Positions 1,036 to 17,870 of a stretch of DNA of 41,305 nt are shown here, in pieces. A program made the position numbers and the translations under genes. The stretch covers positions 1-41,305 of the forward strand of contig QIGO01000155.1 of assembly GCA_003230015.1 (NCBI GenBank). Direction: 5' to 3'. The notes under the pieces are model-generated. The model ran no database searches and was not told the DNA's origin. It was given only the letters and a program-made list of their open reading frames with translations. The first letter of the stretch is position 1; the number at the start of each line of letters is the position of its first letter. The DNA comes from Alphaproteobacteria bacterium. GTDB taxonomy: Bacteria; Pseudomonadota; Alphaproteobacteria; UBA6615.

Positions 1036-1734
1036 ATGGTCGATCTAATGACATGGCGGATCGCTCTGCGATCCCCCGGCGTAACACTCGGGCCGGGCCT
1101 GCCGGCGGCTGTCGTCACGGCCGAGCCACGTTTTCGCCATGAGAGAATGCCGGCCGAAATTGGCCTCTTATTACCCACCAACGAAGGCCCCAAACAACTG
1201 ATCGACGCAGTCGTCGCGGATCCGGCCCGCTGCGGCGACGCCATCCTCGGCCTGTTTATGGCCAATCCTTTCCTCAACATATCCCTGGAGGGTCCAAGAC
1301 TGACCGGCGCCGGCGTCCGTTGGGTCGCGAACCTTCCCAGCGTCGAACAGCAGGACGAGGATTTCTCCAAACACCTGGCTGACGTCGCTTTGGATCGCGA
1401 GCGCGAATTGGACTGTCTTTCCAGATTTCGCGCCCAGGGGTTCCGTATTGCCGTCGTCGTCGCCGATGGACCAGGTGCTGTGGCGGCGGCCGCCATCGAG
1501 CCCGACACCATGATCATCCTGCCGCGCGTGGCCGATTTCGCCGCGGCATTCCCCTCTCTTCGCCAGCGCGGTGCGGCGGCGCAGGCCGTCTATGAGGCCA
1601 CGCGCGCCAACGGCTGGCACGGCCCGATTTTAGGCCTCGGGAAAGCCCGGGAAGCCCAACATCAGGGGCTTTGGCCCGAACGCCTGGACGGCTTGCTCTG
1701 CCGCCCGATCCGTGTTTCACATGAAATGAGCTAG
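1036..1734 (+). CDS. PEP-hydrolase-like TIM-barrel protein (stand-alone)
   Basis: 232-aa ORF; the segment ILGLFMANPFLNISLEGPRLTGAGVRWVANLPSV aligns by eye with ILLGVNVWGPRFDPVAEADSIRHAGFAGAVNFPSC of the neighbouring fusion protein. Start codon uncertain. Confidence 0.55.
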   Translation: MVDLMTWRIALRSPGVTLGPGLPAAVVTAEPRFRHERMPAEIGLLLPTNEGPKQLIDAVVADPARCGDAILGLFMANPFLNISLEGPRLTGAGVRWVANLPSVEQQDEDFSKHLADVALDRERELDCLSRFRAQGFRIAVVVADGPGAVAAAAIEPDTMIILPRVADFAAAFPSLRQRGAAAQAVYEATRANGWHGPILGLGKAREAQHQGLWPERLDGLLCRPIRVSHEMS

Positions 1735-3548
1735 CCGGAAAGCCCAAATCGCTTAATCTTGTTATAGAGGGTCTTGCGCGACATCCCCAACGCCTGCGCG
1801 GCCCGGGTGCGGTTGAACCCATGGCGCCAGAGGGCATCGACGATCCTGTCCTTCTCGGTGCGGACATTGCCGTCGGCACCGCTCTTTTGCCGCAGCAATG
1901 GCAAAAGCTCGGCCGGCTGAACCGGTTCGCTGCGCAACGGCCCGGCCAGCGCCCCAAGAACCGAGCGCAATTCCGCCTCGTTGCCGGGCCAAAGATGGGC
2001 CTGCAGGCACTGAATTGCCGCGAATGAAAAGAATGACCGATCCATGCTGGTGCTAAGACTATCGGCTGCCCGGGCGCTGACGATGGCCATAAGATCGTCG
2101 ATGCGCTCTCGCAACGGCGGCACACGCAGTGTCCAGCCGGCCATATGTGTCACTAGATCGGCTTCCAGCCCGGCTCCCAGCAGGTCCTCCTCCACCCGGC
2201 CCGCCATCACCGGTATATCGCAAACCAGCACGACACGCGGCGCCACTGGCAGGGTTCGCCGGGTCCCCGGCGCCCGAAACACACCGTCGCGCAGCGCCCG
2301 GGCCAAACGCCGTTGCGTCGCCCCCGGCAGACGGTGTGGTGCATGGATGACCAAAAGGCCGACTTCGCTGTCGGCCAAAGCCGGCCGGCGTTTGGCCAGG
2401 GTATCGGGATGCCCGAACAGGATGCTGCGCGCCCGGGCTGGAAAGTCTTCTCCGGCGACGTCGACATGCAGCATGCCTTGGGCACGGGCCGGATCGGCCA
2501 AACCGCTCAGGGCTTGCAGAACCGGCATTGGCCCCAGTCCCGGTTCTGCCAGCAGCAGGACGGCGTCGGAGGCCCCCGCCATTGTGCGCAGGCGGCGCAA
2601 AAAATCCAGATGGGCCTTCGAGCGGCCGACAAAGCCAAATCTCTGCGACCAGGAAACCAGGCCGGCACTCTCATTGTCTAGCGCCGCCCGCCGCTTGCTG
2701 GCTTGGCGAAAGGCGTCGACCTGATCGGCGACGGAAACCTCCAAAGGCATACGGTCGAAGGTGGAGCCGCCCACATAACCGTCGATGGGTGCCAGGGCAA
2801 GAATGCGGCCAAGATCTTCCGCCGTCGCGATCGGTCCGCCTTCCAGCAGAAACCGTGTATCCGGGTTGATGCGCTTGACCAGGCGGCCGATCTCGCGGGC
2901 CACGGTTGCCACTTCCTCGATCGTCGCCCGACGGCGATGGCCCAGCGCCCCACCCACATTCCAGCCCAGATTGAGGCAAATATGGTCGAGACCCGCATCC
3001 GCCGCGAGCCGTGCCTGGGTCCGGGTCGCGCAATAAAACATCGACGTGAGACCCGCATCCTGCGCCGCCCGCAATTGTTCCACCTCGATTTCAATGCCGC
3101 GCCCCGCTCGCGCAAGAATCTGCTGCATCGGTCGCGAAAAATGCATACAGCTTGGGAAGTTAACAGCCCCGGCGAATCCGGCGTGGCGGATCGAGTCCGC
3201 CTCGGCCACAGGATCGAACCGCGGCCCCCAGACATTGACACCCAGCAGAATCGGCACCCCGCATTGGGCCAGCAATTCCTCCCGCGCAAAGCCGTCCGTC
3301 AGGGTCCGTGCGTCAAAGATCGGCAGCATACAAGCAATCGAGGGTGCCCCCATATTGCGCAGCCGGCCAGCACTGATCGCCAGCAGAAAAGCCGCCCCGC
3401 CGCGTTCGGCCGCCAGGGCGGTATTCCCCGACCCGATGCACCGATAAGAAATCCAGATTTTCCGCCGATCGCAGTCAACGGCGACCTCCCAGGACCGTCG
3501 CGTCCGCTGGATACACGCCGGTCCGAAAACCCCAACGCCGGGCCTCAT
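1731..3548 (-). CDS. PEP-hydrolase-like TIM barrel fused to a degenerate sigma-54-activator AAA+ domain and a C-terminal Fis-type HTH
   Basis: N-terminal half IGSGNTALAAERGGAAFLLAISAGRLRNMGAPSIACMLPIFDA...GVNVWGPRFDP...; C-terminus KDRIVDALWRHGFNRTRAAQALGMSRKTLYNKIKRFGLSG is a Fis/NtrC HTH. The ORF extends to 4046 but would run into the divergent cytochrome gene; ATG at 3548 is a plausible start. Confidence 0.75.
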   Translation of the reverse strand: MRPGVGVFGPACIQRTRRSWEVAVDCDRRKIWISYRCIGSGNTALAAERGGAAFLLAISAGRLRNMGAPSIACMLPIFDARTLTDGFAREELLAQCGVPILLGVNVWGPRFDPVAEADSIRHAGFAGAVNFPSCMHFSRPMQQILARAGRGIEIEVEQLRAAQDAGLTSMFYCATRTQARLAADAGLDHICLNLGWNVGGALGHRRRATIEEVATVAREIGRLVKRINPDTRFLLEGGPIATAEDLGRILALAPIDGYVGGSTFDRMPLEVSVADQVDAFRQASKRRAALDNESAGLVSWSQRFGFVGRSKAHLDFLRRLRTMAGASDAVLLLAEPGLGPMPVLQALSGLADPARAQGMLHVDVAGEDFPARARSILFGHPDTLAKRRPALADSEVGLLVIHAPHRLPGATQRRLARALRDGVFRAPGTRRTLPVAPRVVLVCDIPVMAGRVEEDLLGAGLEADLVTHMAGWTLRVPPLRERIDDLMAIVSARAADSLSTSMDRSFFSFAAIQCLQAHLWPGNEAELRSVLGALAGPLRSEPVQPAELLPLLRQKSGADGNVRTEKDRIVDALWRHGFNRTRAAQALGMSRKTLYNKIKRFGLSG

Positions 3549-3810
3549 CTGAGCAAAGCGCGAACATCTGTGACAAATCGCCCGGAAATGACTGTTGAGG
3601 CGCCAGTGACATTGACATTTCGCTCGCCCGAAGGTGTATGTCCTTTCTGATCTTCCTGAGTAGCTTCGATGTTTTCTTGGCATAGTGCCACTGATTTTCC
3701 CGGCGGCCCGCTTGACCCTCCACGTAATCGCCTCAATAACGAAGTCGCAATGGGCCCGGCTGGGCAGGGCGCAAGGCGCATGACCATGTCGGTATTTGCC
3801 GGGGGGTGAC

Positions 3811-4282
3811 GATGAAACGACGCATTTTCTGGGCCGCCGGCGGCGCGCTTTTGGTCGCCGCTGCCGCACTTTTGGCGGCCATAGTGTGGCGGCAGCCGGC
3901 GAAGCCCTCAATGGACCCGAACAATGCCGCTTTAGTGGCGCTGGGACAAAGCACCTATGCGCAAAATTGCGCCGCTTGCCACGGTCAAAATCTGCAAGGT
4001 CAGCCGGACTGGCAAATTCGCTTGCCCAATGGCCTGCTCCCCGCACCCCCCCACGACGAGTCCGGCCACACCTGGCATCATCCCGACGACGTGTTATTTG
4101 ACCTGACCAAGAAGGGCCTGGTGCCCCCCAACGCTCCTGATGGCTATGAAACAGCGATGCCGGCCTACGAGGATATCCTTACCGACGCCGAAATAGCGGC
4201 GGTGCTGGCATATATCAAGAGCACCTGGCCACCGAATGTTCAAAAACGTCAACGGCGCCTGACCGAGCAGTCGCAACCCTGA
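3811..4282 (+). CDS. Membrane-anchored class I c-type cytochrome
   Basis: N-terminal hydrophobic segment MKRRIFWAAGGALLVAAAALLAAIVW, then NCAACHGQ (CxxCH) and a distal Met (ETAMPAYEDILTD). ATG approximately at 3811-3814 within ORF 3806-4282. Confidence 0.85.
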
Positions 4283-4486: not shown

Positions 4487-5059
4487 ATGAGAAGTTTAAC
4501 CATAGCGGCGCTCATCGGTGCCGTGCTGGCGTTAACCTTGGCGGTACCCGGCGTACGGGCCGCGGAGGGCCCGCCCATCTCGGGCTCCGTGCAGAATTTC
4601 GACGTCCGGGACGAGCCGGTACCGATGCCGCAAATACCCTTGCAGACAAATCTTAACCAGGACCGGCCCCTCTCGGATTTCCGCGGCAGGGTCATATTGG
4701 TTAACTTTTGGGCCACTTGGTGCACCGGGAGTTGGCGTGAGCTGCCGACCCTCGAACGGCTACAGGCCAGGCTTGGTGGTGATAGTTTCACCGTCGTCAT
4801 TGTCAGCCAGGATGTTGAGGGCTGGCCGGTGATCGAGCCATTCCTCAAGCAGCGCCGCTTCGGCTTCCCTGAAAGCTACTATGACGCCGGTTTCAAGCTC
4901 GGAGATGCCGTCAACCTTCCGCCGCAAATGGGGTCGATACTGATCGACGAGCAAGGGCGCGAGGTCGGCCGCCTGGATGGCCCGGCCGATTGGGATACCG
5001 ACGAAGCGGCGGCACTCATTCAATATTACATAAATGCTGCTAGTGACGGTGCGACATGA
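4487..5059 (+). CDS. TlpA/thioredoxin-like periplasmic protein with atypical CxxS active site
   Basis: Signal-peptide-like N-terminus; NFWATWCTGSWRELPTLERL; strong similarity to the next ORF (PPISGSVQNF...VSQD..GW...). Confidence 0.85.
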   Translation: MRSLTIAALIGAVLALTLAVPGVRAAEGPPISGSVQNFDVRDEPVPMPQIPLQTNLNQDRPLSDFRGRVILVNFWATWCTGSWRELPTLERLQARLGGDSFTVVIVSQDVEGWPVIEPFLKQRRFGFPESYYDAGFKLGDAVNLPPQMGSILIDEQGREVGRLDGPADWDTDEAAALIQYYINAASDGAT

Positions 5060-5113: not shown

Positions 5114-5698
5114 ATGAGGAAATCGGTTATCGCTGGAGCAGGCATATTGGCGGCTGTTGCCACAATGCTGCTGTTCGAGACCCCTGCCGCGCTCGCCGAT
5201 GTTCCGCCCATATCTGGATCGGTGCAGAATTTTGTCGCCTTTGACGAGCCGATACCCGCGTCAATCATCCCCTTGAGCACCAGAGACGGCGGCGAACAGA
5301 CATTCGAGGATTTCCGCGGCAAAGTCGTGGTGGTCAATTTTTGGGCGACTTGGTGCGGCCCCTGTGTGCGCGAGATGCCGACCCTGGCCAAGCTTCAGGA
5401 ACATTTCGCCGACAACGATGATTTCGCCTTCGTCATCGTTAGTCAGGATCGCGGCGGCTGGAAGGAAATCGCGCGTTTCATGAAAAGGCTGAAGCTGGAT
5501 TTCCCCAACAGTCTTCTCGATGACAAACTGAAGCTGAGCCGGCCCATGCAGGTGCGCAGCCTGCCCGTCGTGGCCATCATTGACCGCCAGGGCGGCGAGG
5601 TCGGCCGCCTCGTCGGTGGCGCCGAGTGGGACTCCCCCGAGGCCATCGAGCTTATCCAATACTATCTGGACGACGACGGCGGTCACGGCACCAGTTGA
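5114..5698 (+). CDS. TlpA-like thiol-disulfide oxidoreductase
   Basis: Signal peptide MRKSVIAGAGILAAVATMLLF; canonical NFWATWCGPCVREMPTL motif; SLPV cis-Pro loop. Confidence 0.9.
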   Translation: MRKSVIAGAGILAAVATMLLFETPAALADVPPISGSVQNFVAFDEPIPASIIPLSTRDGGEQTFEDFRGKVVVVNFWATWCGPCVREMPTLAKLQEHFADNDDFAFVIVSQDRGGWKEIARFMKRLKLDFPNSLLDDKLKLSRPMQVRSLPVVAIIDRQGGEVGRLVGGAEWDSPEAIELIQYYLDDDGGHGTS

Positions 5699-5730: not shown

Positions 5731-7959
5731 ATGAAGACGAACGCCCTGCGCTTTGGCCGTCTGCTCACCCTGGGACTGGCGGCGCAAATTATCGCGCTGA
5801 CCGGCGCTTTCGCTCAGACCGACGGCGCCGCCAGCGACTGGGACGGTTCGCTTGACGAAGTCCCGGCCCGCGCCCGGCTCATCGCCGCCACCACCGGTGT
5901 CGGCCAGTTGGACGAGCTCCGCGTCGGCATTGAAATTGAGCTGGAGCCGGGGTTCAAGACCTATTGGCGCACCCCGGGCGGCCCGGGTTTCCCCACGTCC
6001 ATAGATTGGGAGGGCAGCACCAACCTGGATACGGCGGCGTTCAAATGGCCGGCGCCGACCCGGTTCGACGTTCTCGGCTTCGATTCCTTCGGTTATATAG
6101 ACCACGTCATTTTCCCCATTGAAATAATTCCCATAGAGATCGGCCAGCCGGTCCAACTGCGGGCCAATGTCGGCTATCTTGCCTGCGACGATATCTGTGT
6201 GCCCATGTCGGCCGATTTGACGCTTGACCTGCCGGCGGGACCGGCAGCCCCCTCCCAGTTCGCCAATCAGATAGATCAGTTTCGTGCCAGGGTCCCGGTG
6301 ACCGACGGCGTCATGGTGGGACTCAATTTCGAAGGCGCCGGGCTCCAGGGCACGACCGACGCGCCTCTCGTACAGATCGCTTTCAGCGCCACTGAACCGT
6401 TCGTGTCGCCCGATGTATTTGTCGAGGGCCCGGAAGAGATCTTCTTTGGCCGGCCCGAGATGCGCCTCGATGGCAATACAGTGGTCTTCACCGTGCCGGC
6501 CGAGGACGCTTTCGGCGAGGAACAGGTGAACATCTCCGGCCAGCCGTTGCGGGTTACCCTGGTCGAGGGTGGGCGCGCCTTGGAGGCGCGCATCAACCCG
6601 GAATGGGGCGGATTCGACGTCGCCGCACTCAGTCCCGCGATAGCTTCGGGCGGCGGGGTAGGAATCGGTGGACTGGGCGCCGCTGGCGCCGCTGGCGCGA
6701 CTGGCGCCGCCGGCCTGTCGATTTTTGCCGTCCTCGTTTTTGCCCTGCTCGGCGGCATGATCCTCAACATCTTTCCCTGTGTGCTGCCGGTGCTGTCCAT
6801 CAAGCTGTTGTCGGTCGTCGGTCACGGCGGTGGTAGCACCCGCGAGGTTCGCACCGGTTTTCTGGCCTCTGTTGCTGGCATTATTGCCGCATTTCTTGTT
6901 CTCGCGACCCTTGTCGTCGGTTTGAAGGCGGCTGGGCAGACGGTCGGCTGGGGCATTCAGTTCCAGCAACCGCTGTTCCTGGTTGGCATGATCCTCCTCC
7001 TGACCCTTTTCGCCTGTAACATGTGGGGCCTGTTCGAGATCCGTCTGCCGGGTCTCGTATCTGACACGGCCGTTCGGCACTCGGGTGGAACAAGTCTGAA
7101 GGGGCATTTTTTCTCCGGTAGTTTCACCACTCTCCTGGCGACACCGTGCACCGCACCTTTCCTGACCACCGCTATCGGTTTCGCGCTAACGCGGGGTATT
7201 GGCGAGGTTTACGCCGTTTTCACTGCCTTGGGAGTAGGCTTGGCGATGCCGTTCATATTAATTGCGGCCTTCCCCAAAATGGTCACCAAACTGCCCAAGC
7301 CGGGTCCCTGGATGATCACGGTCAAGAAAGTGCTGTCCCTGGCGCTGGTGGCGACCGCGGTATGGCTGCTGTCAGTCATGGCGGCACAGGTTTCCCTACT
7401 CACCGCATCCACCGTGGCCGCCTTGATGGTCGTCGTCGCATTGATCTTTGCCATGCGCAAATTCATACCCGCGCGCGCCGGCCGGGCAGTACCGGTGGCG
7501 ATCGCGGCGGTCGCCATATTCGCCTTCGCCACGCCGGCACTTCTGCCCCGTTCGGAGGTTGCATCAGCCGGCGTCGAGGTGCGCGCCGAGGTCGCCTATC
7601 AACCCTTTGATCCGGCGGCCATCCCGGCGCTGATATCCACCGGCAAAGTCGTATTTGTCCATGTTACCGCCGATTGGTGCATAACCTGCAAGGTCAATGA
7701 GAAACGTGTCCTCGAGGTTGGTGACGTCGCCTCGGCCCTGGCCAGGGACGATATAGTTGTCATGGAAGCCGACTGGACCCGACCGAACGACGATATCGCC
7801 GCCTACTTGGCAACCTTTGACCGGTTTGGTATTCCGTTCGACGTTGTTTACGGTCAGGACACGCCCAATGGCAAAACCTTGCCGGAGCTGCTGACGGCGA
7901 ACGCGGTTTTGACCGCCCTGGGTAATGCCAGCCCCACCCTGCGGCTGGCCCTAAACTAA
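5731..7959 (+). CDS. Protein-disulfide reductase, DsbD/ScsB family
   Basis: N-terminal domain with GYLACDDICVPMSADLTLDLP, multi-pass core with NIFPCVLPVLSIKLLS and ATPCTAPFLTTAIGFAL, C-terminal thioredoxin HVTADWCITCKVNEKRVL. Start ATG at 5731 (MKTNALRFGRLL). Confidence 0.92.
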   Translation: MKTNALRFGRLLTLGLAAQIIALTGAFAQTDGAASDWDGSLDEVPARARLIAATTGVGQLDELRVGIEIELEPGFKTYWRTPGGPGFPTSIDWEGSTNLDTAAFKWPAPTRFDVLGFDSFGYIDHVIFPIEIIPIEIGQPVQLRANVGYLACDDICVPMSADLTLDLPAGPAAPSQFANQIDQFRARVPVTDGVMVGLNFEGAGLQGTTDAPLVQIAFSATEPFVSPDVFVEGPEEIFFGRPEMRLDGNTVVFTVPAEDAFGEEQVNISGQPLRVTLVEGGRALEARINPEWGGFDVAALSPAIASGGGVGIGGLGAAGAAGATGAAGLSIFAVLVFALLGGMILNIFPCVLPVLSIKLLSVVGHGGGSTREVRTGFLASVAGIIAAFLVLATLVVGLKAAGQTVGWGIQFQQPLFLVGMILLLTLFACNMWGLFEIRLPGLVSDTAVRHSGGTSLKGHFFSGSFTTLLATPCTAPFLTTAIGFALTRGIGEVYAVFTALGVGLAMPFILIAAFPKMVTKLPKPGPWMITVKKVLSLALVATAVWLLSVMAAQVSLLTASTVAALMVVVALIFAMRKFIPARAGRAVPVAIAAVAIFAFATPALLPRSEVASAGVEVRAEVAYQPFDPAAIPALISTGKVVFVHVTADWCITCKVNEKRVLEVGDVASALARDDIVVMEADWTRPNDDIAAYLATFDRFGIPFDVVYGQDTPNGKTLPELLTANAVLTALGNASPTLRLALN
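6676..6711 (+). repeat. Four 9-bp tandem repeats (GGCGCCGCT-like) encoding (GAA)n in the ScsB/DsbD linker
   Basis: GGCGCCGCT GGCGCCGCT GGCGCGACT GGCGCCGCC, in frame, translates GAAGAAGATGAA just before the first core TM helix. Confidence 0.9.
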
Positions 7960-7996: not shown

Positions 7997-8569
7997 ATGC
8001 CCAAACGATTGTTGGCTTTTCTGCCGGCTTTGATTGCTGTTGGCGTCGGTGGCTTTTTTCTATGGGCGCTGGTCTCGGGTCGTGACGCTTCCATCCTGCC
8101 GTCAGTGCTCATTAACGAACCGGCGCCGCAATTCGCTTTGGCGCCGGTCGAGGATGTCGACCGGCCGGGCGTCAGCCGGGAAGACCTTTTGGGGCAGGTG
8201 ACTTTGGTCAATTTTTTCGCTTCCTGGTGCATACCCTGTCTGGCGGAACACCCACTGATCACCCGCATGGCCGAGGATGGCTTGCCGGTGTTCGGCATCA
8301 ACTACAAGAACGAGCCGACGGAGGCGCGCAATTGGCTGCGTAAATATGGCAACCCCTACACACGCATTGGATCGGATTACGACGGCCGCACCGGCATCGA
8401 GTTCGGCGTCGTCGCCTTGCCGGAAAGCTTTGTCATCGATCAAAATGGAGTGATCCGCTACAAGCAAGTTGGCGTGATTACGCCCGATGATTTGGAGAAC
8501 ATAATCCTTCCTCTGATTGCGGTGCTGCAAAAGGAGGGGGTTGCGAACGAAGGCGCCGATCCGCTTTAA
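7997..8569 (+). CDS. dsbE: DsbE/CcmG-type thiol:disulfide interchange protein
   Basis: N-terminal TM anchor; APQFALAPVEDVDRPGVSREDLLGQVTLVNFFASWCIPCLAEHPLI; GVVALPESFVIDQNGVIRYKQVGVI. Confidence 0.88.
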   Translation: MPKRLLAFLPALIAVGVGGFFLWALVSGRDASILPSVLINEPAPQFALAPVEDVDRPGVSREDLLGQVTLVNFFASWCIPCLAEHPLITRMAEDGLPVFGINYKNEPTEARNWLRKYGNPYTRIGSDYDGRTGIEFGVVALPESFVIDQNGVIRYKQVGVITPDDLENIILPLIAVLQKEGVANEGADPL

Positions 8570-8649: not shown

Positions 8650-9201
8650 ATGCCGCAGCGTTGGCTTTCGGCTTTGCTCCTGTCCATGGCCATGTGGTTT
8701 GCGACGCCCGACAGCCTAGCGGCGGCCGAACACCCGTTTGTGCTGACGCCCCAACTGAAGGCCCAGCTTGCGCAACTGGACGTCCTGCGCGGCGCCGACT
8801 TCGATCCGTTGGATTTCGGCGGCAAGGCCGTCCTGGTAGGTTTTTTTGCTAGCTGGTGCGTGCCTTGCCGCAAGGGTTTCATCGAGCAGCGCAAGCTTCT
8901 CGATCGGCTGGGCCGCGACCGCCTGAAGATCCTAGCCGTCAACTGGTTCGAAGATGCCACCCGCTATCCCGGTGAATCCATGCGGCTCAACCGTCTCCTC
9001 GATCGCATAACCCCCGGCATCACGGCCCTGGAGGGCAACCAAGCGGTCTATGACGCTTTTGGCCGTTTCCGCGGTCTCCCGGCAATATTCGTGTTTGATC
9101 GCACGGGTCGGGAGATCTATCGGTTCATGTATCTTGGCGGCCCCGGTAACGTTAACGCCGACTACCAGACAATCCGCACCCTGCTCGAAGCTCTCTCCTA
9201 A
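8650..9201 (+). CDS. TlpA-like thioredoxin-domain protein
   Basis: Signal peptide, GFFASWCVPCRKGF, RGLPAIFVFDRTGRE. Confidence 0.85.
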   Translation: MPQRWLSALLLSMAMWFATPDSLAAAEHPFVLTPQLKAQLAQLDVLRGADFDPLDFGGKAVLVGFFASWCVPCRKGFIEQRKLLDRLGRDRLKILAVNWFEDATRYPGESMRLNRLLDRITPGITALEGNQAVYDAFGRFRGLPAIFVFDRTGREIYRFMYLGGPGNVNADYQTIRTLLEALS

Positions 9202-9319
9202 CGGTATCGCCTCACACATTGTTGAGTCACGGTGACCAATATAGGTGCTTCGACTGGTTTATGATCAGAAACGCTTAACACGCCGGGGAACCGTCTCCGC
9301 CAACCTTGGGAAAGCCGCA

Positions 9320-10342
9320 ATGACCACTGCAAGAACAGCCACGACCCGAATCGCGGTCGGATTCGCTATGGGCCTTATGGCCCTCACAGCGTCAAGTTTA
9401 AGCCAGGCCCAGCCGCAGCTCTGGCAGTCCGAATGGCCACGCACGGACTTCGACAACACCAGCATCGACTACAGCGAGATCCTGTCGGGCGGTCCGCCCA
9501 AGGACGGCATCCCAGCGATCGATGATCCCCAATTCGGGACCATTGCCGATGGCGAGGCATATCTCGCCGATACCGAGCCGGTCGCCAGCATCGTGGTCAA
9601 TGGCAACGCCCGCGCCTATCCCATTTCGATCTTGATGTGGCATGAGATCGTCAATGACGAGTTCGACGGCCTGCCTGTGTCGATGACCTTCTGTCCCCTG
9701 TGCAACTCCGTCATTGCATTCGATCGGCGCGTTGGCGATCAGGTGCTGGACTTCGGCACCACCGGCAAACTGCGTTTTTCGGACTTGGTCATGTATGACC
9801 GCCAGACGGAGAGCTGGTGGCAACAGTTCCTCGGCGAGGCTGTCGTCGGCGAAATGACCGGACAGTTATTGAAAATGATTCCGTCACGGACGGAGTCTTT
9901 CGCCAAATACAAAGAACGCTTCCCCACCGGCGAGGTCATGCTGGTTCCCACTAATTTCCGCCGGTCGTATGGCGAGAACCCCTACGTCGGATATGACAGC
10001 TCAGCGCAACCCTTCCTATTTCGCGGTGAGTCTCCCAAGGACATCGCGCCTATGGCTTATGTCCTCGCCATTGGCAAGGAGGCATGGAGCTTGGATCTTC
10101 TTAAGGAACAGCGCCGCATCGAGATGGATGATGGCACTGTCATCACCTGGGAGCCCGGCATGAATGCGAGTATGGACGCCCGGGTGATCTCGCAAGGGCA
10201 AGATCTGGGCAATGTTGCCGTGCAGCGGCGCAACGCCGACGGAGAAATGGTAGACGTCGTACACGACCTCACTTTCTCCTTTGCCTTCAATGCGTTCAAC
10301 CCCGGCGCACCGATCTATCAGGCATGGCCGCCGGAAAGTTAA
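9320..10342 (+). CDS. DUF3179 domain-containing protein
   Basis: Signal-peptide-like start MTTARTATTRIAVGFAMGLMALTASSLSQA; DUF3179-type MTFCPLCNSVIAFDRRV and FGTTGKLRFSDLVMYDRQTESWWQQF. Confidence 0.85.
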   Translation: MTTARTATTRIAVGFAMGLMALTASSLSQAQPQLWQSEWPRTDFDNTSIDYSEILSGGPPKDGIPAIDDPQFGTIADGEAYLADTEPVASIVVNGNARAYPISILMWHEIVNDEFDGLPVSMTFCPLCNSVIAFDRRVGDQVLDFGTTGKLRFSDLVMYDRQTESWWQQFLGEAVVGEMTGQLLKMIPSRTESFAKYKERFPTGEVMLVPTNFRRSYGENPYVGYDSSAQPFLFRGESPKDIAPMAYVLAIGKEAWSLDLLKEQRRIEMDDGTVITWEPGMNASMDARVISQGQDLGNVAVQRRNADGEMVDVVHDLTFSFAFNAFNPGAPIYQAWPPES

Positions 10343-10380
10343 GCAGATAGCGTATGGCGCCAGAGCTTATTGTTACAGCT

Positions 10381-10455
10381 AGAGTGTTTCCAGGAAAAGC
10401 GGACACCGCTTTTCCGCCAGCAAACACGCTAAATGGTTTTGAGTCCATCAAAACC
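10381..10455. repeat. Double-hairpin intergenic palindromic element
   Basis: GGAAAAGCGG-ACA-CCGCTTTTCC (10393-10415, perfect 10-bp stem) flanked by AGAGTGTTT/AAACACGCT; second hairpin GGTTTTGA-GTCCA-TCAAAACC (10435-10455). Confidence 0.8.
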
Positions 10456-10491
10456 AGACCCTGGGGCAATGGCGCCATCACGCCACCCACG

Positions 10492-11528
10492 ATGAGCATC
10501 TTCATGCGACTCATCCCATCAACCACCCACGGGAAGGTTATAGCGGGTGGCTTGATTGCGGTGCTGCTGATCGCTTTCATCGTCACAAGACAGTCGGGCG
10601 AGGCGTCGTTTGCCACCAAATTTGCCTGGCCACAAACCGATTTCTCCCAATTTTCTCCCAATCGAATGTTGATTTCGGTGAGATCCTGTCCGGTGGTCCG
10701 CCCAAGGACGGTATCCCATCGATTGACGATCCAATATTCGCCACCATCGCCGACGTAAAAGACTTCCTCACCGATACCGAGCCGGTCGCCAGCATAGTCA
10801 TCAACGGCGACGCTCGGGCCTATCCCATGTCGATAATGATCTGGCACGAGATCGTCAATGACGAGGTCGGCGGTGTCCCCGTATCCATGACCTTCTGTCC
10901 CTTGTGCAATTCCGTCATCGCCTTCGACCGGCGCGTCGACGGCCAAATTCTGGACTTCGGAACCACCGGAAAACTGCGTTTTTCGGACCTGATCATGTAT
11001 GACCGGCAAACCGAGAGCTGGTGGCAACAATTCATCGGTGAAGGCATTGTCGGCGAGATGACGGGACAGCGCTTGCAGATGATACCCTCACGCACGGAAT
11101 CATTCGCGCGGTTCAAGGAACGCTTCCCCAACGGCCAGGTCCTGCTCCCGCCCCAGGGTGCGCGACGCTCATACGGCCAGAACCCCTATGTCGGATACGA
11201 CTCGTCGTCGAAGCCATTCATGTTCCGTGGAAAGTCGCCCGAAAACATCGCGCCCATGGCCTACGTCGTGGCTGTTGGCGACCAGGCCTGGAGTCTCGAT
11301 CTGCTCAAAAAAGACCGTCGTATCGAGACCGGCAACGGCCTGATTATTTCCTGGGAGCCGGGCATGAACTCAACGATGGACGCACGGGTAATTTCCCAGG
11401 GGCAGGATCTCGGCAATGTGGTTGTACAGCGCCGCAATACCGCCGGAGAGTTGGAAGACGTCGTGCACGACCTCACTTTTTCCTTTGCTTTCAACGCCTT
11501 CAACCCAGGCGGCACAATCCATCAATAG
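10492..11528 (+). pseudogene. Second DUF3179 gene, frameshifted by an 11-bp tandem duplication
   Basis: Frame 1 reads MSIFMRLIP...FAWPQTDFSQ up to about 10650; homology resumes in another frame as SNVDFGEILSGGPPKDGIPSIDDP...MTFCPLCNSVIAFDRRV... to 11528. Confidence 0.85.
10641..10662 (+). repeat. 11-bp perfect tandem duplication TTTCTCCCAAT x2
   Basis: Read directly: 10641-10651 and 10652-10662 are identical; deleting one copy restores the DUF3179 frame. Confidence 0.95.
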
Positions 11529-12224: not shown

Positions 12225-12674
12225 CTAGTGGGCTTCTTCGGGTTCGAGGTGGTTTACATGCAGGCATTGTGAATGATCGCTTAACACCTCGATGACACGG
12301 CAGTCGGCAACCTGGCCCCCCGCGCATTGCTCGACCATTCTGTTTAATTCCGCCTTCAGGGCCAGCAACCGTGCGATCCGGCTTTCGACTTCCTGCAGTT
12401 GGGATCGGGCGATACTGTCCGCTGAATCACAGGGCTGCTCGCCGCTATCGGCCAGTCTCAGCAATTGTCGGATCGCTTCGAGGGGAAAGCCCAGCTGCCT
12501 GCCATGGCGTATAAAAGCCAGCCGCTCGATATGCCGTGCCCCGTAGCGGCGCTGGTTACCCGCCGTTCGGTCAGGCGTCGGCATCAGCCCGACTTTTTCG
12601 TAATACCTGATGGTCTGGACCTTGCAGCCGGTGTCTTTGGCCAGCCGCCCTATCGTATAGCTTTGTTCCATCAT
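12225..12674 (-). CDS. MerR-family heavy-metal regulator (CadR/PbrR-like)
   Basis: YTIGRLAKDTGCKVQTIRYYEKVGLMP; C-terminal Cys/His-rich metal-binding tail ...QCAGGQVADCRVIEVLSDHSQCLHVNH. Confidence 0.9.
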   Translation of the reverse strand: MMEQSYTIGRLAKDTGCKVQTIRYYEKVGLMPTPDRTAGNQRRYGARHIERLAFIRHGRQLGFPLEAIRQLLRLADSGEQPCDSADSIARSQLQEVESRIARLLALKAELNRMVEQCAGGQVADCRVIEVLSDHSQCLHVNHLEPEEAH

Positions 12675-12686
12675 CGAAATTTTTCC

Positions 12687-12717
12687 TTGAACCTACAGTC
12701 GCTGTAGCTCCTATATT
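12687..12717. promoter_or_regulatory. MerR-type operator/promoter: TTGAAC-19 bp-TATATT with dyad CTACAG-TCG-CTGTAG
   Basis: Perfect 6-bp inverted repeat (12693-12698/12702-12707) inside a 19-bp spacer, between merR-like gene and divergent P-type ATPase. Confidence 0.85.
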
Positions 12718-12856
12718 TAGAGCTAACACGGTTTCCGGACCAGGTCAAAGGCAGAAAATCCCCAAAACCCGGGAGATTCCTCCTCTGAAATAGGTCGCCG
12801 GGGCCCGTATCTGACATTCCTTTTAGCTCAAATAGACATTGGGCTGGAGTATTTCC

Positions 12857-15190
12857 ATGTCAACGCACCAAAAGCACCAACACAGCCACAAGCCCGAAAC
12901 CCAGGCATCGTCTGGCGGCGATTGCTGCAGCACGGCAGTATACAACATCGCCGGCACCGCCGGTTCGAGCCGATATCGTTACACTTTCGCGGTTCAGGGG
13001 CTCGATTGCGCCGAAGAGGTCTCGGCGCTCAAAAAGGTGGTTGGACCGGTCGCGGGCGGGCATGAGCATCTGGCTTTCGATGTCCTCAACGGCCGCATGA
13101 TGGTGCTCGAAGACGCCGGCACGGTAACCGCCGAGGAAATTCGTAAAGCGGTGCAAAGGACCGGCATGAGTGCCGTCGAATGGCGCGAGGGCGACGTTGA
13201 GGCCAAGCAGGCGAGCGAGAGGCACCACCGTGTTCAAACCTGGCTGACAGCACTCAGCGGCGTGTCCCTATTCACCGGATTAGCCCTGCATATCTGGCTC
13301 GCCGGCGGCTTTGGCGCCCATGACGGGCAGCCGACGCCGTTGCCTGAAATCATTGCCTATATCTTGGCTATTGGATTCGGCGCCCGCTTCGTCGTCGTCA
13401 AGGCCTGGTATGCCGCCCGCGGCCTGCGGCCGGATATGAACTTGCTCATGGTCATCGCGGTCTCCGGCGCCATCGGCATCGGCGTCTGGTTTGAGGCGGC
13501 GGCAATCAGTTTCCTGTTCGCCTTGTCGCTGCTGCTGGAAAGCTGGAGCGTCGGTCGCGCCCGCCGCGCCATCGCTCAATTGCTCGATCTGGCGCCGCCC
13601 ACGGCGCGCGTAATATTCGATTCCGGCGAGGAAAAAGAAGTTCCGGCGGCCCAGGTAGCGGTCGGATCGCGCTTTGTCGTCAAGCCGGGGGAGAAAATCG
13701 CCCTCGACGGCACGGTCCTGATGGGCATCAGCGCTGTGAACCAAGCGCCCATCACCGGCGAGAGCGTCCCGGCCTTGAAGGAGCCCGGCGCCGATGTTTT
13801 CGCCGGCACCATCAACGGCGAAGGCGCCATCGAGGTGGAAAGCACCAAGGCGTCCAACGATACCACGCTGGCGCGTATCATCCGCCTGATCGAGGAAGCC
13901 CAGGGCCGCCGCGCCGCCGCCGAGCAATGGGTTGAAAAATTCGCCCGCGTCTACACGCCCCTGGTCATCGTCCTGGCGATCGCCGTGTTTGCGCTGCCGC
14001 CGCTGCTGTTCGGTGGCATATGGGCCGAGTGGTTCTATCGCGCGCTGGTATTGCTGGTGATTGCCTGCCCCTGCGCCCTGGTGATTTCGACGCCGGTCAG
14101 CATCGTCTCCTCGCTGGCCGCGGCCGCCCGTCAGGGCGTGCTGGTCAAGGGCGGCACATATATCGAACAGCCCGCCCACCTCAAGGCCATCGCCTTCGAC
14201 AAAACCGGAACCCTGACGCGCGGCGAGCCGGCTGTGGCGGGTATCATCCCGCTCAACGGCCACACCGACGCCGAACTGCTGGAGCGCGCCGCCGCCCTGG
14301 AGGCACGCTCCAGCCATCCTCTTGCCCAGGCGATCCTGGACCGCGCCGCCCGCGCCAACATCGCGGTAACACCGGCGCAGGATGTGCAGGTGCTGCCGGG
14401 CAAGGGCGTCACCGGACGTTTTAAGGGTGAGGAATTCTGGCTCGGCTCCCATCGCTACTTGATGGAGCGCGGCCAGGAGACGGCCGAAACCAAGGCCCAG
14501 GCCGAGGTGCTGGAACGCCAGGGACGGACGGTTGTGGTGATCGGCAGTGACTCGCATGTTTGCGGTCTGATCGCGGTCGCCGATACGGTTCGCCCGGCTG
14601 CCCGAGAGGTCATCGCGGCATTGCGTGCCCGCGGGGTCGAGCATCTGATCATGCTCACCGGCGACAATCGGGCCACCGGCGAGGCCATCGCCCGCGAAGT
14701 CGGCATCGACGAGGTTCATGCCGAACTGCTGCCCGAGGACAAGGTCGCGGCGGTTGAGGCGTTGGTCGAAAAATACGGCACGGTGGCGATGGTCGGCGAT
14801 GGTGTTAACGACGCGCCGGCCATGGCACGGGCGAGCTTTGGCATCGCCATGGGCGCCATGGGCAGCGACGCGGCCATCGAGACCGCTGATATCGCGCTGA
14901 TGACCGATGATTTGGCCAAATTGCCGTGGCTGGTCGGCCACTCCAAACGAACGCTGGCCATTATCCGCGCCAACATCGTCTTTTCGCTGGGCGTCAAGGC
15001 TGCCTTCGCCATCCTCGCCTTTGCCGGCATTGCCACCCTGTGGGGGGCCATTGCTGCCGATGTCGGCGCTTCGCTCTTGGTCGTCGCCAACGCCATGCGA
15101 CTGCTTAACCAACGGCAGATGACCAAGGAAAAGCCCCCCTCACTGGCGGCGGAGCCTGCTCCTGCCCAGCGCATGGCCCATGGGCATTAA
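12857..15190 (+). CDS. cadA: Heavy-metal-translocating P1B-type ATPase (Cd/Zn/Pb, CadA/ZntA-like)
   Basis: CPCALVISTPVS, DKTGTLTRGEP, SSHPLA, MLTGDNRATGEAIA, MVGDGVNDAPA; N-terminal HMA-like GLDCAEEV. Confidence 0.93.
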   Translation: MSTHQKHQHSHKPETQASSGGDCCSTAVYNIAGTAGSSRYRYTFAVQGLDCAEEVSALKKVVGPVAGGHEHLAFDVLNGRMMVLEDAGTVTAEEIRKAVQRTGMSAVEWREGDVEAKQASERHHRVQTWLTALSGVSLFTGLALHIWLAGGFGAHDGQPTPLPEIIAYILAIGFGARFVVVKAWYAARGLRPDMNLLMVIAVSGAIGIGVWFEAAAISFLFALSLLLESWSVGRARRAIAQLLDLAPPTARVIFDSGEEKEVPAAQVAVGSRFVVKPGEKIALDGTVLMGISAVNQAPITGESVPALKEPGADVFAGTINGEGAIEVESTKASNDTTLARIIRLIEEAQGRRAAAEQWVEKFARVYTPLVIVLAIAVFALPPLLFGGIWAEWFYRALVLLVIACPCALVISTPVSIVSSLAAAARQGVLVKGGTYIEQPAHLKAIAFDKTGTLTRGEPAVAGIIPLNGHTDAELLERAAALEARSSHPLAQAILDRAARANIAVTPAQDVQVLPGKGVTGRFKGEEFWLGSHRYLMERGQETAETKAQAEVLERQGRTVVVIGSDSHVCGLIAVADTVRPAAREVIAALRARGVEHLIMLTGDNRATGEAIAREVGIDEVHAELLPEDKVAAVEALVEKYGTVAMVGDGVNDAPAMARASFGIAMGAMGSDAAIETADIALMTDDLAKLPWLVGHSKRTLAIIRANIVFSLGVKAAFAILAFAGIATLWGAIAADVGASLLVVANAMRLLNQRQMTKEKPPSLAAEPAPAQRMAHGH

Positions 15191-15195
15191 TAATT

Positions 15196-15223
15196 GCCGG
15201 CATTGATCGAGAACAATGCCGGC
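15196..15223. terminator. Hairpin downstream of the P1B-ATPase (putative terminator/stabiliser)
   Basis: GCCGGCATTG-ATCGAGAA-CAATGCCGGC, perfect 10-bp stem immediately after the stop codon; no clear T-tract. Confidence 0.6.
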
Positions 15224-15300
15224 TGGACACGATCAGGGCTATAGAAGCCTTTGGACCGAACAACATGCCGACCCAATGAGTATCGGTGCGGAGTAGTAAA

Positions 15301-15783
15301 ATGACTGATCAAGAACCTCGCCGGAATACACTTAGCGTTAGACCCCTTGCATTATTCACCGCCATCGCTATCGCCGGGGGCATCGCCACCGCATCACTCT
15401 CCGGGGCGGCAAACGCCGCCGCGATCACCGTTTACAAGTCCCCTTGGTGCGGTTGCTGTGCAAGTTGGGCGGAGCGTCTAGAGGCCGAAGGCCACACCCT
15501 GACGATCAATGACGTCGAGGACCTGGGCCAAATCAAGAAGTTGGCCGGCGTTCCCGAAGAACTGCAAGCTTGTCACACCGCCTCGGCGGAGGGTTATATC
15601 ATCGAGGGCCACGTACCGGCCAAGGAGCTCGCACGGCTACTCGCCGAACGCCCGGAGGCCAGGGGACTTGCCGTTCCGGGCATGCCGGGCGGATCGCTCG
15701 GTATGGAAGGCGGCGAGCCGGAGCCTTACGACGTCTTGCTCTTTGATGCCGATGGCACGACGACTGTCTACGCGCAATACTGA
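15301..15783 (+). CDS. DUF411 domain-containing (putative copper/metal-binding) periplasmic protein
   Basis: Signal peptide, ITVYKSPWCGCCASWAERLEAEGH..., ELQACHTASAEGYIIEGHVPAKELARLL. Confidence 0.88.
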   Translation: MTDQEPRRNTLSVRPLALFTAIAIAGGIATASLSGAANAAAITVYKSPWCGCCASWAERLEAEGHTLTINDVEDLGQIKKLAGVPEELQACHTASAEGYIIEGHVPAKELARLLAERPEARGLAVPGMPGGSLGMEGGEPEPYDVLLFDADGTTTVYAQY

Positions 15784-15936
15784 GGACGACGCCCGGTCGG
15801 TATATTGGTGACCCGCAAAGCAGCCCCCCGCTCCATCAACGGCCATGAATAACTCGAGATCGATAGAATCGACACACGTCTTGAATGCTGCGGCGGCAGG
15901 CTTTCGCGGAAACGGCCTGGATAACGGGATGAACTC

Positions 15937-17049
15937 TTGGCTGGATGGTCCATCGACGTGCTGAGAGCAAGGCATTTGATCGCGTTGGCTGTGTTGGCCT
16001 TCGGTTTGTTGGTTGCCCGCGGCGCCCAGGCGCATGGCGTCCTACGGCCCGATCAAAATCTTTGGACGGCTTGGAATCTTACCCCGGAGGTCACGCTCGG
16101 CACGCTGCTCGTGGCCGGCCTCTACATGACCGGTCTCTGGCGCCGGCAATATAAAACCGATCGCGCGCATCCCTGGCGGCATTTCTCCTTCTTCATCGGG
16201 CTCGCGGCGATCTTTCTCGCCCTTCAATCTCCCATCGACGCCATTGCCGAACGGATATTTCTGGTCCATCAGGTCCAGCACCTGTTGTTGCGCATGATCG
16301 GCCCGCTGGCGCTGTTCCTGGCCGCCCCGCAGGCGCTTCTGATCGCCGGCACGCCCGCTTGGGCACAACGCCGAATTGTCGCGCCCATCCTCACCAATGG
16401 CACCGTTCGCAACCTCTTCGGTATGCTCACTCATCCAGCACTGGTGACGGCACTTTTCATCGGCACCCTCTATTTCTGGCAGATTCCCCGCTTCCATAAC
16501 CAGGCCCTGCTAAACGACGCCATGCACTACCTCATGCATGTCAGTATGTTGATTCCGGGTCTGTTGTTTTTCTGGCGTATTTTCGATTCCCGACCGGCGC
16601 CCAAGGGCACCCGTTACGGCGTGCGCATTATGATGCTGTGGGTGATGATCCTCTCCAATATCGTCATTGGCTCCTATCTTGCGTTCAAGCAAGTGGTCCT
16701 TTACTCCGCCTATGCCGAACTCGGCCGTATTTGGGATATTTCTGCTCAAGCGGACGAGCTTTTCGGCGGCGCATTTATTTGGATACCCAGCAGCATGATG
16801 GGTGTTGTTACGGTCCTGATCGTGGTCCATATGTGGGGAAATCAGGAAACAAAAGACGAGAGCCGCCGCACTACCAGATTGCTGCGACAAGGCAATGGGC
16901 AAAACAATCTGTCAATAACGGCAGCCGACCTATACCGACAGACAGCCCGAAGAAACCGAGTTATGGCGCTCGGATATGCCAGCTTTGTGATCGTCGTATT
17001 CACCACGGCAATCACTATCGGAATATTCAGCCAGATTATGGGCTCTTGA
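15937..17049 (+). CDS. CtaG/Caa3-type cytochrome c oxidase assembly family membrane protein
   Basis: Multi-pass; HQVQHLLLRMIGPLALFLAAP, MHYLMHVSMLIPGLLFFW, LGRIWDISAQADELFGGAFIWIPSSMMG. Start is TTG at 15937 in the track; alternative starts possible. Confidence 0.85.
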   Translation: MAGWSIDVLRARHLIALAVLAFGLLVARGAQAHGVLRPDQNLWTAWNLTPEVTLGTLLVAGLYMTGLWRRQYKTDRAHPWRHFSFFIGLAAIFLALQSPIDAIAERIFLVHQVQHLLLRMIGPLALFLAAPQALLIAGTPAWAQRRIVAPILTNGTVRNLFGMLTHPALVTALFIGTLYFWQIPRFHNQALLNDAMHYLMHVSMLIPGLLFFWRIFDSRPAPKGTRYGVRIMMLWVMILSNIVIGSYLAFKQVVLYSAYAELGRIWDISAQADELFGGAFIWIPSSMMGVVTVLIVVHMWGNQETKDESRRTTRLLRQGNGQNNLSITAADLYRQTARRNRVMALGYASFVIVVFTTAITIGIFSQIMGS

Positions 17050-17522
17050 AGGCACCGTCGCGTTTCGCTGGCGTCCCTGCTCGCTCGACGGCAGGTGATT
17101 GCAGTTTACCGCCCCGCGCCCCGGCCACAGATAGGGCGAGCTGGCCCCTTGTTGATCGCGGCACGCCAACATTCGCCGGCGCTCGTTCTTGACCGTCACG
17201 CGTCGCCCTTGGTTGCCGCCAAGGAGTTCGAACTGCCGCCCGGCCCGCCCTTCGATCGCGACATGCCCGTCTGGATTGTTTGGCAAGTTGCGGGAGCTCC
17301 ACAGAAACCCAACATGGGCGCCGCGGCTTGAGCCGTCGGCACCAACCACCACCACGCAACCCTGCCGCGGCTCATATGGACTTCCGCCGCCTGCCGCCTC
17401 TCCAGGTCCCACCGCTGTTGCTCGGCCTGGGCGGCTTGTAGCCACGCCGGCCCAGCGCCCGTTCGGGCCACGGGATCCGCTGCAACCGTCGCGCGAACGA
17501 GCCAGTCCGGCGCCACGGGGCC

Positions 17523-17870
17523 ATGATGGGCGGGAACAATTCGGTAATGACCTTCGACACCAACGGCGACGGCCGCGTGACTCAGGCCGAGATCGACGAA
17601 TTTCGCAGCAACCGCTTGTCGGAATTCGATACCAATAGCGACGGCAACCTGACATTGACGGAATACCAGGCGCTTTGGCTCGCCGCCATGCGCGAGAAGA
17701 TGGTCGACCGCTTCCAGGACCTGGATGCTGACGGTAACGCTGTGGTGACGACCGAGGATTTCAAAAGACCATTCGCCAACTTGGTCCGCCGCTTGGATAA
17801 GAACGGCGACGGCGATTTATCTCGCGAACACAAAAAGAACGAAGCAATGGAGGAGAAGAAACAGGAATAG
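17523..17870 (+). CDS. EF-hand calcium-binding protein (N-terminus uncertain)
   Basis: Repeated D-x-[ND]-x-DG loops: FDTNGDGRVTQAE, FDTNSDGNLTLTE, LDADGNAVVTTED, LDKNGDGDLSREH. Confidence 0.75.
   Translation: MMGGNNSVMTFDTNGDGRVTQAEIDEFRSNRLSEFDTNSDGNLTLTEYQALWLAAMREKMVDRFQDLDADGNAVVTTEDFKRPFANLVRRLDKNGDGDLSREHKKNEAMEEKKQE

Follow-up and report, generated by a model that had tools for sequence, protein, structure and literature searches.

When a thioredoxin-fold protein of the TlpA type has lost both the second cysteine of its CxxC motif and the cis-proline (cis-Pro), is it a decaying copy or a protein maintained for something other than reduction? In thioredoxin chemistry, the first cysteine attacks and the second resolves, and a reductase deprived of the second halts at the mixed disulfide or makes use of an outside thiol. 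The question is raised by a gene, here named P1, in the draft bin of an uncultured alphaproteobacterium (GenBank assembly GCA_003230015.1; 3.07 Mb in 244 contigs, 74.6% complete), where it lies beside an intact paralog, P2. Coordinates are those of the window, i.e., the whole stretch of 41,305 nucleotides that was analysed (contig QIGO01000155.1).

The gene row and the active site of P1

The redox genes around P1 and the altered codons within it are the following:

3806..4282, + strand: c-type cytochrome 5' of P1 (Pfam PF00034, PF13442)
4487..5059, + strand: P1, CxxS TlpA paralog, 190 aa (ATG start, TGA stop; sequence)
4718..4735, + strand: P1 active-site codons W78 C79 T80 G81 S82 W83 (TGG TGC ACC GGG AGT TGG)
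4928..4930, + strand: P1 Met148 (ATG), in the predicted cis-Pro place (gapless profile alignment, AlphaFold)
5114..5698, + strand: P2, intact TlpA paralog, 194 aa, CGPC (sequence, Pfam)
5731..7959, + strand: ScsB/DsbD-type membrane electron importer (DsbD_N PF11412, DsbD_TM PF02683, PF13899)
7997..8569, + strand: DsbE/CcmG-type thioredoxin, WCIPC (TIGR00385 dsbE, 150 bits, cut-off 123.15)
8650..9201, + strand: further TlpA/Redoxin-like protein, WCVPC (Pfam Redoxin over cut-off)

A first-pass annotation of the window had described the P1 frame as intact over 190 aa, which was borne out, the frame being open and free of stops. The translation contains one Cys and no His, and a signal-peptide-like N-terminus (VRA/AEG, judged by eye) suggests that P1 may be secreted. 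By sequence, P1 is plainly a TlpA: Pfam, a 144-row alignment and an AlphaFold model with its PDB match assign it to the TlpA/ResA/CcmG-type thioredoxin fold. It exceeds the Pfam cut-off for AhpC-TSA and Redoxin, and its top NCBIfam model is that of rhizobial TlpA (NF047696), yet at 105.5 bits against a cut-off of 230; the same model is the best for P2 (102.5 bits, cut-off 230). P1 and P2 share 46% identity over 186 aa (E = 2e-51), and the named proteins nearest to P1 are alphaproteobacterial.

With spacings of 54 bp between P1 and P2 and of 32 bp between P2 and the ScsB-type gene, P1 heads an operon-like row comprising an intact TlpA, a ScsB/DsbD-type importer and a DsbE. An AGGAG ribosome-binding-like site lies 5' of P2, and a promoter scan gave nothing useful. 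The role of the importer, whose C-terminal thioredoxin domain carries WCITC, is drawn from its domains and from general knowledge of DsbD/ScsB. The cytochrome gene is 204 bp from P1 on the same strand, a tie that is positional only. The order is represented by 24 genomes in the search set, including the source bin; 22 of the 23 others have ScsB/DsbD homologues, at loci apart from their TlpA. TlpA and ScsB are not kept side by side in the relatives examined within the order, so that the operon argument is confined to the source genome. Elsewhere in the window, a frame on the minus strand (1731-4046) combines a PEP_hydrolase-like domain with an AAA lid and a Fis-type HTH, and would encode a regulator of the enhancer-binding kind joined to a domain of the TIM-barrel type. 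The redox genes are followed on the same strand by two adjoining DUF3179 proteins (9245-11528), and positions 12225-17870 hold a MerR-type regulator (minus strand), a heavy-metal P-type ATPase, DUF411, CtaG and an EF-hand protein.

The conversion of CxxC to CxxS that the first-pass annotation had seen in P1, against WCGPC in its neighbour, can be read directly in both motifs. In P2, TGG TGC GGC CCC TGT spans 5351-5365, with the Cys codons at 5354-5356 and 5363-5365 and the cis-Pro codon CCC at 5564-5566. In P1, Ser82 (AGT, 4730-4732) replaces the resolving Cys and Gly81 stands where CxPC has Pro; the attacking Cys79 and its W-A-T-W-C setting are wholly retained, as is the nearby Glu85.

The same annotation had held the catalytic cis-Pro to be replaced as well, setting PPQMGSILI of P1 against SLPVVAII of P2, which is right in substance, the exact change being from Pro to Met148. 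In the fit of P1 to a profile of 71 relatives, from which P1 had been left out, Met148 falls on the Pro column within an ungapped region, and the AlphaFold model, with a pLDDT of 92 over residues 141-150, has a helix (134-141), a loop and a strand (149-153), Met148 being immediately N-terminal to the strand. On alignment and model, Met148 is the cis-Pro position of P1, and the residue preceding it (column L147) is also changed. One pairwise alignment (phmmer) with Bradyrhizobium TlpA, containing a 3-residue gap, had offered Pro145 as a retained cis-Pro. It was rejected since it needs two compensating indels, the stretch K-L-x-x-A-V-N-L matching the family's K-F-S-R-A-I-G-V without a gap; the profile alignment and the position of the strand in the model also contradict Pro145.

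Rarity and origin of the CxxS protein

The second Cys is present in 143 of the 144 aligned homologues, and the cis-Pro in 142 of the 143 with a letter at that column, P1 being the sole exception each time. Of the order's 23 other genomes, 22 have TlpA homologues, mostly single-copy (G022 is the one without), and each homologue with a readable motif carries CxxC. At one locus of the order (L136, G018:C26:24822-25178), the TlpA match is short, with an in-frame TGA and a CxxC motif, and this copy may be broken or misassembled. A DNA pattern for the CxxS form, W-A-(S/T)-W-C-x-x-S-x-x-E-x-P with both Ser codon families, has no match outside the source genome among 372 genomes of the class; its CxxC form recovers 22 of the 24 genomes of the order. 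No further CxxS copy was found at the fetched loci of the class and wider groups, viral contigs gave no CxxS copy and one weak relative, and 161 plasmid records hold TlpA relatives, all below 60% identity, whose motifs were not inspected individually. As far as these searches reach, P1 is known from one genome and is without a known orthologue.

The first-pass annotation had reasoned that CxxC in all orthologs of close relatives would point to an isolated mutation or a sequencing error. In form, this is the pattern observed, all readable homologues being CxxC, but these are ordinary TlpA proteins and not demonstrable orthologues of P1. Several active-site codons of P1 have been altered independently, and with four distinct changes in the active site, neither an isolated mutation nor an error of sequencing can account for it. 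An assembly or sequencing artefact in the Ser codon could draw on the fragmented state of the bin, with its 244 contigs, and on the single base change that turns TGT into AGT; it is hardly credible when at least two base changes separate the codons of Gly81 and Met148 each from any Pro codon and the frame runs open from end to end.

Regarding the origin of P1, it sits unresolved at the base of the clade of the order in one tree, and in a second it branches immediately outside a clade formed by P2 together with the TlpA proteins of the order (support 97/86), its placement being unsure owing to long branches. P1 is the sister of P2 in neither tree, and a recent tandem duplication of P2 was set aside, although their sisterhood is not rejected (p-AU 0.137) and such a duplication is not excluded. 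P1 may have arisen long ago, or recently and with rapid change since then. Of the tandem TlpA paralog described in the first-pass annotation, the adjoining position and the 46% identity stand, whereas the trees lend no support to a simple tandem duplication.

Other tandem TlpA pairs were encountered. Two of them (L144, L088) have CxxC in both copies. In a third, from an uncultured member of the Flavobacteriaceae (L107:5294-6477, + strand), the first copy reads WASWKLPC and has a cis-Pro, and the second reads WCPPC. Judging by these motifs, the disarming of one copy in a TlpA pair may have taken place more than once, by different changes.

Decay or selection

Among the 22 columns conserved to at least 90%, P1 loses four of the five that belong to the active site (P81, C82, L147 and P148) and none of the 17 others, a clustering with a hypergeometric p of 7e-4; every other row of the alignment loses at most one active-site column. 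At the 80% threshold, a single residue beyond the active site is lost in P1, against an average of 1.9 in the other rows. The codon-position GC of P1 (0.65/0.46/0.70) matches that of the neighbouring genes. Between P1 and P2, pairwise pN is 0.37 vs. 0.69 for pS, with synonymous sites near saturation and a value that is not branch-specific. The usual marks of a pseudogene, namely stops, frameshifts, lost codon bias and random losses at conserved columns, are absent from P1, and on these sequence features its decay is unlikely. While the first-pass annotation had argued for neofunctionalisation rather than decay, it is the second half of this statement that holds, given the losses restricted to the active site, the codon bias, the lack of stops and the excess of pS over pN; neofunctionalisation in the sense of one of the functions it had named, i.e., a monothiol protein, a mixed-disulfide trap, a chaperone or a metal ligand, does not follow.

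P1 could nevertheless be a redundant duplicate in early decay, in which the active site was lost first and the gene is not yet broken. The occurrence of P1 in one genome only, next to readable order homologues that are all CxxC, and its long branch of 1.1-1.3 changes per site agree with such a course. Yet with P1 and P2 only about 45% identical, stops should already have appeared under neutral drift, only 20 of 1500 sequences remaining stop-free in a neutral simulation from P2 to 46% identity, and drift should have struck other conserved columns as well. A normal codon-position GC and a pN well under pS, subject to the near-saturated and not branch-specific dS, likewise speak against it, and early decay appears distinctly improbable. 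That P1 is a selected, non-reductase TlpA paralog is, by comparison, very probable, although selection on the retained Cys79 itself is not demonstrable from a single P1 sequence.

Possible roles of a TlpA protein with one thiol

Monothiol glutaredoxins are glutathione-dependent and keep their cis-Pro. Together with ArsC (PMC2757866), they resemble P1 in having a single attacking Cys with Ser in second place, but they belong to other families. Peroxiredoxins are thioredoxin-fold relatives with Arg at the cis-Pro position (PMC2757866); they keep the peroxidatic Cys, in T-x-x-C, whereas P1 keeps the N-terminal one, in C-x-x-S, and has Met148. Sco proteins are relatives of the same fold with a metal role, from which P1 differs by the lack of CxxxC and of His, and PF02630 (Sco/SenC) has no match in P1. 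The closest solved relative of P1, by sequence and predicted fold, is Bradyrhizobium TlpA (1jfu; NF047696), a working reductant of the copper-site proteins ScoI and COX II (PMC6696091). It has CVPC and the cis-Pro, unlike P1, which has neither. The AlphaFold model of P1 is a confident TlpA fold (mean pLDDT 92.1) and its top PDB matches are the mixed-disulfide complexes of TlpA C110S with ScoI (4txo) and CoxB (4txv). This engineered variant and P1 share the replacement of Cys by Ser at the resolving position; however, TlpA C110S is an artificial trap in which the Pro of CVPS and the cis-Pro (MPTS) are still present, whereas P1 is natural and both its prolines are gone.

From thioredoxin chemistry, P1 with its one thiol would be unable to complete a dithiol reduction cycle and would bind TlpA-type clients or partners non-catalytically. 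Attack of Cys79 on a disulfide would hold P1 in a mixed disulfide until an outside thiol frees it. The natural releasing reductant would be the intact P2, fed by the adjoining ScsB/DsbD-type importer, and likely clients would be proteins of respiration that carry Cys, for instance CoxB or c-type cytochromes. Holding by a mixed disulfide is supported by the laboratory CxxS TlpA, which held its client by a disulfide (4txo, 4txv). In its full version, in which P2 and the importer free P1 from the mixed disulfide, this reading is a plausible but tentative one.

Studies of related enzymes bear on both changes. The CSYS and SSYC variants of HP0377 reduce and isomerise less well, and replacement of its cis-Pro (P156T) leaves the protein inactive in vivo (PMC5909903). 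As CSYS was nevertheless able to reduce apocytochrome c (PMC5909903), CxxS alone need not inactivate. DsbA P151T loses efficient turnover, and with a PapD peptide it formed no mixed disulfide that was stable (PMC13269488); trapping by cis-Pro substitution has been reported by others, as cited in PMC13269488 and PMC5909903. By analogy, the loss of the cis-Pro in P1 may block client capture rather than stabilise it.

P1 might also act by its surface alone, in a purely structural role, binding the partners or clients of TlpA or pairing with P2 as a non-catalytic adaptor or competitor, Cys79 being a leftover. A scaffold retained after loss of the catalytic loop is the usual signature of a pseudo-enzyme, and in the independent tandem pair of the Flavobacteriaceae the first copy (WKLPC) has lost the other Cys and kept the cis-Pro; the complete preservation of Cys79 and W-A-T-W-C exceeds what a leftover needs, which makes this account less probable than a mixed-disulfide holder, although it deserves serious consideration. 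A conversion of the former reductase into a copper carrier, binding Cu(I) through Cys79 (thiolate) and Met148 (thioether), is unlikely. Met148 occupies the cis-Pro column, which packs against the active-site Cys in the TlpA-type fold, and the cis-Pro has been proposed to shield the motif of the active site from metals (Su et al., 2007, cited in PMC2757866). The TlpA clients ScoI and COX II are copper-site proteins (PMC6696091), and DUF411, CtaG and the heavy-metal P-type ATPase lie 8-12 kb downstream. In addition, SCO1/SenC (PF02630), which is matched in 21 of the order's 24 genomes, has no match in the source bin, where COX2 is present; but with the bin 74.6% complete, Sco may simply be missing from it. 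Further, P1 has no His and one Cys, a Cys plus Met site is weak unless a third ligand is provided, the proximity of the two residues is predicted, and the ATPase and MerR regulator score best with Zn/Cd/Pb-type models. The more specific proposal that P1, its Cys79 and Met148 brought opposite one another when the cis-Pro was lost, replaces Sco as Cu(I) carrier for cytochrome oxidase, with its thiol kept reduced by P2 and ScsB, is very unlikely.

On its sequence, P1 is a real variant of the TlpA family that occurs in nature, is clearly marked by its disabled active site and is known from one genome, and it looks like a non-catalytic relative maintained by selection. Its reach is limited in that it is a single sequence. 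CxxS and cis-Pro changes are the biochemists' means to trap the clients of thioredoxin-fold proteins or to halt turnover, and in P1 both appear in a natural protein that stands beside a working twin and an electron importer. P1 would thereby test whether periplasmic redox enzymes retain non-catalytic partners, and what it is that the cis-Pro prevents.
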